DNA of 64,000 nt, taken from assembly GCA_040289475.1 (NCBI GenBank), contig PSLF01000004.1, positions 33,191 to 97,190 of the forward strand, in the 5' to 3' direction. A program made the position numbers and the translations under genes. The notes under the pieces are model-generated. The model was not told the origin of the DNA. It worked only from the letters and a program-made list of their open reading frames with translations, and ran no database searches. Positions within the stretch are counted from its first letter, which is position 1; every line of letters begins with the position of its first letter. Of the stretch, positions 50,690 to 53,300 are shown piece by piece. This DNA comes from Acidimicrobiia bacterium. Lineage in GTDB: Bacteria; Actinomycetota; Acidimicrobiia; ATN3; PSLF01.

Positions 50690-51502
50690 TCACGGAAACT
50701 GCGAGTAGTCGGGAGTCCGTTTCTCCATAAAAGCTCGGACAGCCTCTAAAAACTCTGGTTTTCCAAACGAATCAGCATTTGCCGCGTCTTCCCGGGCTCT
50801 TGCCGCCCGCACCTGATCGGCCTCTGCCTCCTTGAGAATGCACTTGATCCGTTGCAGTACGCGCCCTGGGTAGGACGCAAGTGACGTAGCTAAGCCCAAT
50901 GCCTCGTCGAGAGCTTTGCCAGGCTCAGAGAGCTTGTACGCAAAGCCGGCTTCGAGTAACCGCTGTGCCGAAATCCAATCACCCAGAAGTAGCATCTCGC
51001 GAGCCATCGTTCTACCCACCGCCAGTGGCAAGAGAACGCTGGATGCGGCCTCGGGGGCTATAGAGAGCGGAGCAAAAGGCATGCGCAGCCGAGCGTCGGA
51101 GGCCATGACCACAAAATCACAATGAAGCAGAAGCGTAGCTCCGATACCGACAGCGTATCCCTCGACTGCCGCAACTAGAGGCTTTGGGAAAGTCGAGATT
51201 GCATCTACGAACGGAACAAAGCCGTGTGGCTCGCCGTTGGAAGCCAGAGTAAAGCCCTCGGCCCACTCCCCGATGTCAGCACCTGCAGAAAAGTTATTCG
51301 AGGTGCTTCCGAGTACGGCAACCCTAACCGACTCAGAAGTTCGAGCGAGACTGAGGGCTTTCCGGACGTCGTCGTAGAGCCGAGTATTGAAAGCATTTTT
51401 CTTTTCCGGGCGGTCAAGAAGTATAAGCGCAACCCTCTCAGGTCGCTCCTCGTACTCGACAGTTTCGAGCGAAGACGTAGAGTTGTGGTCCCGGTCATTC
51501 AT
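50690..51502 (-). CDS. Enoyl-CoA hydratase/isomerase family protein
   Basis: This 270-aa crotonase-fold enzyme binds acyl-CoA and forms an oxyanion hole with SNNFSAGADIGEW (about residues 67-80) and VEGYAVGIGATLLLH (about 113-127). One catalytic Glu is kept in SIAPEAASS (about 148), while the other hydratase Glu position (in the GIGATLL segment) is not Glu. An isomerase or another crotonase activity is therefore as likely as hydration. Acyl-CoA genes elsewhere in the window could share its pathway. Confidence 0.9.
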   Translation of the reverse strand: MNDRDHNSTSSLETVEYEERPERVALILLDRPEKKNAFNTRLYDDVRKALSLARTSESVRVAVLGSTSNNFSAGADIGEWAEGFTLASNGEPHGFVPFVDAISTFPKPLVAAVEGYAVGIGATLLLHCDFVVMASDARLRMPFAPLSIAPEAASSVLLPLAVGRTMAREMLLLGDWISAQRLLEAGFAYKLSEPGKALDEALGLATSLASYPGRVLQRIKCILKEAEADQVRAARAREDAANADSFGKPEFLEAVRAFMEKRTPDYSQFP

Positions 51503-51753
51503 AAGCCAATCGATCCTCTAATTTGCTGACTTGAAGACGTTCTCCCTGTCGAATCGACCACTACAAGGGGCACCTTGTCACGCCCAATCGAATTGTTGAG
51601 ACAACAGAGATCATCGAGTAAATATCCACCGAGGTGTCACCGGACATCAACTTGAACATCGTGGGTCGATATTGGAGAGGGGGCGAGAAGCGTTTTGGCC
51701 CCAGAGTCACGAAAGGCAAAGAGGCGCCTCGTAAGATGACCCTCAAAGATATG
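51503..51753 (-). other. Intergenic region before tRNA-Ala
   Basis: These 251 bp contain small palindromes (for example CAAGGGGCACCTTG), but no gene, terminator or promoter is convincing. Confidence 0.35.
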
Positions 51754-51827
51754 TGGAGGTGAGGGGACTTGAACCCCTGACCTCGGCCGTGCGAAGGCCG
51801 CGCTCTTCCAGCCTGAGCTACACCCCC
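51754..51827 (-). tRNA. tRNA-Ala (anticodon CGC)
   Basis: The 74-nt minus-strand cloverleaf folds fully: acceptor GGGGGTG/CACCTCC, D-arm GCTC/GAGC, anticodon stem CGGCC/GGCCG with loop TTCGCAC (anticodon CGC), and T-arm AGGGG/CCCCT with loop TTCAAGT. The discriminator is A. The third acceptor pair is G:U, the alanine identity element. CCA is not encoded. Confidence 0.97.
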
Positions 51828-51957: not shown

Positions 51958-52596
51958 TTAGGATGGGTTATCTAACTTTTGGTGCAAGGCGGCCAGCGAG
52001 TGTGCAACCTCGTGTTGAATAGCGGTAATCGTCAACTCCGATCGGCTGCGCTCTATGGCACTGCGCGCCGCATCCGTTCTTGATCTCAGGCCCCGTGTGA
52101 GCGAGTCCGGGTAGTCCATCGTAGTTAGCAGTTGGTACAACTCATCCATAACCTGGAGCACTTCTTCTCCACGACCGATATCGCCTCTGCGAAGCGAGTC
52201 CAGCAAGTGCCGACGAAGCTCGCCGACCGTTTCGGCAACTCCACTGAGGTACTCAGCAATTCCTACTCCGACTTCGGCCGGGGTGGGAAGTCGACCATCT
52301 CTTATAAGACAGAAAGTCAGGTTCGCTTCGGCCAGTTCTTTTTCCGCATCCGCAATGAATCCTGCGTAACGCACCTGGGGCACTGGCTCACAACGCTCTA
52401 TCGCTTCCTGGAGGAAAGCTCTGGCTTGTGCCATCAAACTCTCTGCTTCTTGCCAGTCGCGCCGGTGGGTTGCCCGTATCGAGTTGGCAGCGCATCGAGT
52501 AGCTTTACGACAAGCCTGAAGAGCAGCCTCCCTGGCCTCGTGCGCCATGTCTAGGTAAGCTCGGGCTTCGTCGGCGATTGGCGCAATGGGTTCCAT
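51958..52596 (-). CDS. Translin-family protein (archaeal/TRAX-like)
   Basis: This 212-aa all-helical protein resembles the translin/TRAX family of RNA-binding and RNA-cleaving proteins. Signature segments are ANSIRATHRRDW (about residues 37-48), YAGFIADAEKELAEA (77-91), AEYLSGVAETVGELRR (114-129), RRGDIGRGEEVLQVMDELY (136-154) and TMDYPDSLTRGLRSRTD (159-175). Four acidic positions that match the catalytic residues of TRAX and archaeal TRAX-like nucleases are kept: Glu87, Glu90, Glu122 (Asp in TRAX) and Glu126. It should therefore be able to bind metal and cleave single-stranded RNA, though this is inference. Its ATG overlaps the stop of the membrane protein gene upstream (TAATG). Confidence 0.87.
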   Translation of the reverse strand: MEPIAPIADEARAYLDMAHEAREAALQACRKATRCAANSIRATHRRDWQEAESLMAQARAFLQEAIERCEPVPQVRYAGFIADAEKELAEANLTFCLIRDGRLPTPAEVGVGIAEYLSGVAETVGELRRHLLDSLRRGDIGRGEEVLQVMDELYQLLTTMDYPDSLTRGLRSRTDAARSAIERSRSELTITAIQHEVAHSLAALHQKLDNPS

Positions 52597-53300
52597 TACC
52601 CTAAGGTACGGCTCAAGCTACTCACGCCCTGTCGGGAGGCATCTGAGAGGATCTTGGACTGCAGTTTGAGCTTCCTCAATACGGAGACATATGCAATAAG
52701 AAGAGCCCCGCACAACAAACTCAACAAAAGTACTGCCTTTAGGCCCGGTAGGAGGCCAATTACAAAGGTCACCGTAAACGCAGCGAGTAGGGTCTGGAAA
52801 ACTGCCTTCCGTCGGCGACGAGCGCTGTACGAGCCCGCCGAGTTCCTAGCTACCTCACCGACATGCACTGCTGGTTGAAGATCAGGCCGACTAGGCACCA
52901 TCGCGGCTGTGGAGGTAGGTCTTGACTTGTAGCCCGCATCATTTAGCGATCCTTCAGCGTATGCGCCCGTGTCTCCGCGATAGCGAGTTCTCGGCTCCCG
53001 GATGGAGCTAGTTCCGTATCCGTATCCCTTCGCCTCCGGGGGCGGCTCGATGGGGCGCCCATCAGGCCCGATTAGCCGAACCGTGGGTGGTGGGTGACCG
53101 ACAATAGATGCCTCTTCCCACTGGTTGGCAGTCGAGATGCCCATCGCAAGAGGAGCAGTTCGGAGAAGCGCGATGTTTGCAAGCCTTCGATTGAAATCCA
53201 GAATGGACCCGTAAATAGCAAAGTCTCGCCGCTCGGAAAAAACCAATTGGGCGGCGACGACCGCAGCTACCACCAGTATCGAGATCAGCACAAGCACCAC
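52596..53300 (-). CDS. Membrane protein of unknown function coupled to translin gene
   Basis: The 234-aa protein has an N-terminal helix (residues 2-18) and a long polar middle, rich in Pro, Arg and Tyr (about 65-150). Two C-terminal helices (about 170-210) and a basic tail (RKLKLQSKILSDASRQG) follow. No family is recognised. The GTG start is one of several possible. The stop and the translin start share a base (TAATG), a hallmark of translational coupling, so the two products may work in stoichiometric ratio; a membrane tether for the translin protein is a testable guess. Confidence 0.65.
   Translation of the reverse strand: MVLVLISILVVAAVVAAQLVFSERRDFAIYGSILDFNRRLANIALLRTAPLAMGISTANQWEEASIVGHPPPTVRLIGPDGRPIEPPPEAKGYGYGTSSIREPRTRYRGDTGAYAEGSLNDAGYKSRPTSTAAMVPSRPDLQPAVHVGEVARNSAGSYSARRRRKAVFQTLLAAFTVTFVIGLLPGLKAVLLLSLLCGALLIAYVSVLRKLKLQSKILSDASRQGVSSLSRTLG

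Follow-up and report, generated by a model that had tools for sequence, protein, structure and literature searches.

The C3PO complex of humans and archaea cuts RNA through its TRAX subunit, and in eukaryotes RNA cleavage of the C3PO type has been described in both RNA interference and tRNA processing. The nuclease activity of human TRAX requires four acidic residues, E126, E129, D193, and E197 (PMC9753400). In archaea, TRAX genes adjoining SepRS have been described (PMC5424206), and the Nanoarchaeum TRAX protein alone degrades RNA after oligomerizing (PMC9051087). Here we describe a gene from an Acidimicrobiia bacterium, located in a 64,000-nucleotide stretch of DNA (the window), the product of which resembles these proteins in sequence and predicted structure.

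Family membership and predicted fold

The gene occupies positions 51958 to 52596 on the minus strand and encodes 212 amino acids, with an ATG start and a TAA stop; the plus strand over the same interval contains stops throughout and is closed as a reading frame. A reading of the locus from sequence only had taken the product for a bacterial translin/TRAX-like protein, citing three signature motifs, and all three are present in the 212-residue translation. The profile search that it had proposed as a check gave a significant match to Pfam PF01997 (Translin), with an E value of 1.3e-7 and 32.2 bits, compared with the curated cut-off of 25.9. By sequence, the closest solved protein is AfTRAX from Archaeoglobus fulgidus (E 5.7e-21), and Nanoarchaeum NEQ131 was also matched. 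A family profile of 23 sequences, comprising the window protein and its same-class relatives, reached AfTRAX at an E value of 1.8e-38, NEQ131 at 1.1e-14, human TRAX at 4.4e-8, and fly TRAX at 4.5e-5, with the human and fly TRAX chains falling between 4e-8 and 8e-5; the same search of solved chains returned no translin chain at E values up to 1. The profile thus places the protein on the catalytic, TRAX side of the superfamily and not with translin. The window protein is 61% identical to a same-order relative and 32 to 49% identical to relatives across the class.

An AlphaFold2 model, for which family relatives were supplied, is all helical and contains no strands (pLDDT 96.6, pTM 0.89). The best Foldseek matches of the model are AfC3PO (TM 0.90 by target length, 1.7 Å), NeC3PO, and human C3PO, while its TM scores to human translin reach about 0.79. 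The predicted structure therefore shows the all-helical fold of the translin/TRAX family. Profile, fold, and alignment all agree in assigning the protein to the translin superfamily and, as judged from its sequence and predicted structure, the product is a TRAX relative and a bacterial orthologue of the archaeal C3PO type.

Comparison with AfTRAX, the subunit of AfC3PO (PDB 3zc0 and 3zc1), shows 32% identity over the fold, and the two proteins, each encoded by a single gene of about 200 codons, both contain the motifs DAxxELxEA, GxADxVGELRR, and FPDxLxxGLR. However, AfTRAX has an aspartic acid where the window protein has E122, and of the residues R41, H44, and R45, which are nearly invariant in the bacterial proteins, it retains only the histidine. 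NEQ131, which forms NeC3PO in Nanoarchaeum equitans (PDB 5jr9, 5jrc, and 5jre), has the same fold (TM 0.9) and the ExxE and DxxxE acids, but is only about 20% identical and again harbors an aspartic acid at the third position. The human and Drosophila TRAX proteins, seen in C3PO structures (PDB 3pja, 3axj, and 3riu), give significant profile matches and their four catalytic acids align with those of the window protein; in contrast to it, they have a long stretch inserted between the first and the second pair of acids.

Active-site acids

With human TRAX numbering fixed by a letter-for-letter match of a fragment to PDB 3pja, E87 (codon GAA, positions 52336 to 52338), E90 (52327 to 52329), and E126 (52219 to 52221), all encoded on the minus strand, align with human E126, E129, and E197, respectively, and each is invariant in 103 bacterial relatives. 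The third acid, E122 (52231 to 52233, minus strand), aligns with human D193, and this residue is an aspartic acid in the human, Archaeoglobus, and Nanoarchaeum TRAX proteins. Across the 103 bacterial sequences, which represent three phyla, position 122 is always acidic, with glutamic acid in 93 and aspartic acid in 10. Eighty of the loci were found by the motif D[YF]PD[AG][MLV]T[GAR]G, so that the invariance of the motif in these loci arises by construction; the acids lie outside the pattern. The sequence-only reading had aligned the four glutamic acids with the metal-binding acids of TRAX-type nucleases. Our alignment bears this out insofar as all four are glutamic acids at TRAX acid positions, and corrects it at E122, where archaeal and eukaryotic TRAX have aspartic acid. 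Thus, on alignment, the E, E, D, E set of TRAX is represented by four acidic residues, three of them identical.

The two AfTRAX crystal sequences differ only at the position of E122, which is an aspartic acid in 3zc1 and an alanine in the RNA complex 3zc0, suggesting that the alanine is a mutation made to stop cleavage. A glutamic acid in place of the aspartic acid could shift the geometry of the bound metal and lower or change the activity. In the gene tree, the aspartic acid forms are found in a SAR202-like group, in one other Dehalococcoidales sequence, and in low-GC genomes of 1 Mb. Because these are separate places in the tree, the bootstrap of which had not settled, residue 122 may have changed more than once.

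Gene neighborhood across phyla

Immediately upstream of the TRAX gene on the same strand lies a gene (52596 to 53300, minus strand) encoding a 234-residue, membrane-type and fast-evolving product, which matches SepX/GlpR, a divisome membrane protein, only weakly (E 8.8e-4, below the model cut-off). Relatives L027 and L028 have a SepX/GlpR-like gene with better matches at the same position. The TAA stop of the upstream gene and the ATG of the TRAX gene have one base in common (TAATG), and the translation of the two genes is therefore probably coupled. On the other side, a gene for tRNA-Ala with the anticodon CGC (51753 to 51827, minus strand, as is the TRAX gene) begins 130 bases past the TRAX stop, and a gene for an enoyl-CoA hydratase (50690 to 51502) is located beyond it. 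In another locus, L019 (genome G012), the enoyl-CoA hydratase gene directly follows the TRAX gene, in frame past one TAG. A promoter and terminator scan of the TRAX gene region gave a result no better than chance.

The usual order in Actinomycetota is plsY, galU, moaC, the SepX/GlpR-like gene, the TRAX gene, and tRNA-Ala(CGC); unlike this order, the window has no moaC at this place. The surroundings differ in Chloroflexota, where the TRAX gene lies between rnhB and thiE on one side and hppA on the other. This row, rnhB, thiE, TRAX, and hppA, is conserved in the Dehalococcoidia (L033, L037, L058, L080, and others), often together with a zinc-ribbon gene, a gene for an MBL-fold protein, and glyS. 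The neighbors vary between phyla and give no clear pointer to RNA metabolism.

Proposed function and its alternatives

Considering the sequence, the model, and the analogy to archaea together, we favor, with a probability of roughly 0.6, that the protein is an RNase like archaeal C3PO, which would assemble with itself, require metal, and clear short single-stranded RNA, where activity, assembly, and substrate are all inferred. The assembly would be a closed cage, as in the archaeal proteins, with each subunit binding a divalent metal via E87, E90, E122, and E126. Cleavage would take place inside the cage, on short single-stranded RNA or the single-stranded parts of duplexes. The likeliest job would be to clear or trim the RNA fragments left by ordinary RNases, such as those from tRNA leaders or from decay. 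The window's genome contains RNase P RNA. That the archaeal mechanism is the likeliest here is suggested by the Nanoarchaeum protein, which acts alone after oligomerizing. Eukaryotic TRAX, in contrast, works in a hetero-octamer with translin, and the window's genome, which is 96.8% complete, contains a single PF01997 match, so that the gene is single copy and no translin partner is visible. Eukaryotic C3PO also works with Argonaute/RISC, whereas a search of the window's genome for the Piwi domain gave no match, and a role in Argonaute loading is therefore unlikely.

As fungal C3PO removes 5′ pre-tRNA fragments (PMC3834833), and tRNA-Ala(CGC) is directly downstream of the TRAX gene not only here but in most Actinomycetota loci examined, the protein might be a dedicated processing factor for this adjacent, co-transcribed tRNA. 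The tRNA-Ala(CGC) region was therefore examined as a control in 13 genomes of the same class that do not contain the TRAX gene (one contig was too short to judge). The synteny marker was moaC, the SepX/GlpR-like neighbor being too divergent for use. In 9 of the 13 genomes, moaC is still found ahead of tRNA-Ala(CGC) and in the same orientation, in 8 of them within 1 kb. Since the same neighbors are kept where there is no TRAX gene, the tRNA adjacency is old, inherited gene order and not evidence for tRNA-Ala processing, and a functional tRNA-Ala(CGC) operon was rejected on the same grounds. Moreover, the Chloroflexota and Armatimonadota relatives examined have no tRNA-Ala(CGC) neighbor. We thus regard a dedicated tRNA-Ala(CGC) factor as highly improbable.

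An unlikely reading, though one to be taken seriously, is that the protein has the same fold and cage but binds RNA or DNA in the manner of translin, holding or protecting RNA without cutting it. Translin sets a precedent, as it functions with this fold but does not catalyze (PMC3834833), and the third active-site residue is glutamic acid instead of aspartic acid in most bacterial members. However, the alignment shows only one of the four acids remaining in human translin, while in the 103 bacterial sequences from three phyla three acids are strictly invariant and the remaining position is always aspartic or glutamic acid, and the family profile retrieves TRAX and not translin. That the enzyme degrades nanoRNA in place of oligoribonuclease (Orn) where Orn has been lost might be proposed from the counts, as Orn is missing from the window's genome and the TRAX gene is present in 13 of 17 genomes without Orn compared with 10 of 26 with it (Fisher p 0.027, uncorrected for kinship). 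These counts, however, follow a few related families, and all of the Orn-less genomes except one fragmentary one encode a DHH-family protein. In size, this protein usually corresponds to the nanoRNase NrnA, as does that of the window's genome. With the DHH proteins counted, Orn replacement finds no support and its probability is remote. Across genomes G000 to G039, G184, G194, and G236, the TRAX gene is found in 19 of 27 with a DHH-family protein and in 4 of 16 others (Fisher p 0.005, uncorrected for kinship).

The names of the closest NCBIfam models would make the protein a haloacid dehalogenase-superfamily (HAD) hydrolase. NF011160 and NF011161, of the PRK14562 series, match over the whole length with E values down to 1.2e-66 and are the best models for the window protein and the relatives scanned, yet the window protein falls under the cut-off of each model in the series, and the scanned relatives likewise score below the cut-offs. 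The name "haloacid dehalogenase superfamily protein" is contradicted by fold, motif, and profiles: there is no HAD Pfam hit and no DxDx(T/V/L) motif, the model contains no strands, and its best fold matches are all C3PO or translin. The PRK14562-series models thus cover this very helical family but give it a wrong and misleading name, and the probability of a HAD hydrolase is close to nil. All six equivalog models from NF011156 to NF011161 carry the name, which is apparently wrong and would spread by annotation.

The TRAX gene is present in 23 of the 40 genomes in a set of relatives that includes the window's own. A sample of 397 genomes from the phylum has it in 132, or about a third. About half of the same-class genomes do not contain it, which indicates that its role is dispensable. 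An alignment query of public genomes retrieved at least 469 relatives, where a single-sequence query of the same kind gave none, and the best 80 are mostly from Chloroflexota, Actinomycetota, and Armatimonadota. Three loci labeled Acidobacteria or Proteobacteria (L026, L040, and L087) have an actinobacterial or chloroflexotal place in the gene tree or neighborhood and probably derive from misnamed bins. Among 14 control genomes, the family was present in three archaea only, and the E. coli genome in this set gave no match. The viral contigs searched contained no relative and PADLOC gave no hit, and a phage-borne or defense gene was rejected on this basis. The sequence-only reading had further held that a bacterial RNA-processing role would be little described. 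The open-access literature searched yielded no experimental work on any bacterial member; the members themselves are common and already recognized, as seen from the six NCBIfam models and from a 2012 paper by Gupta et al. (cited in PMC5424206), the title of which refers to translin-superfamily proteins in eubacteria. The gene therefore belongs to a widespread, uncharacterized bacterial branch of a known family and does not represent a new kind of system.

For the family as a whole, we propose only tentatively, and with somewhat more doubt than belief, that members in the three bacterial phyla form C3PO as a homo-oligomer, with glutamic acid replacing aspartic acid in the active site. Such a cage RNase would act generally on small RNA fragments and constitute an as yet unstudied line of RNA turnover in bacteria. 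If the window protein is active, C3PO-type RNA cleavage would be extended to a large number of bacteria, most of them uncultured, and its activity in an Argonaute-less genome would hint at the job of this enzyme outside RNA interference.
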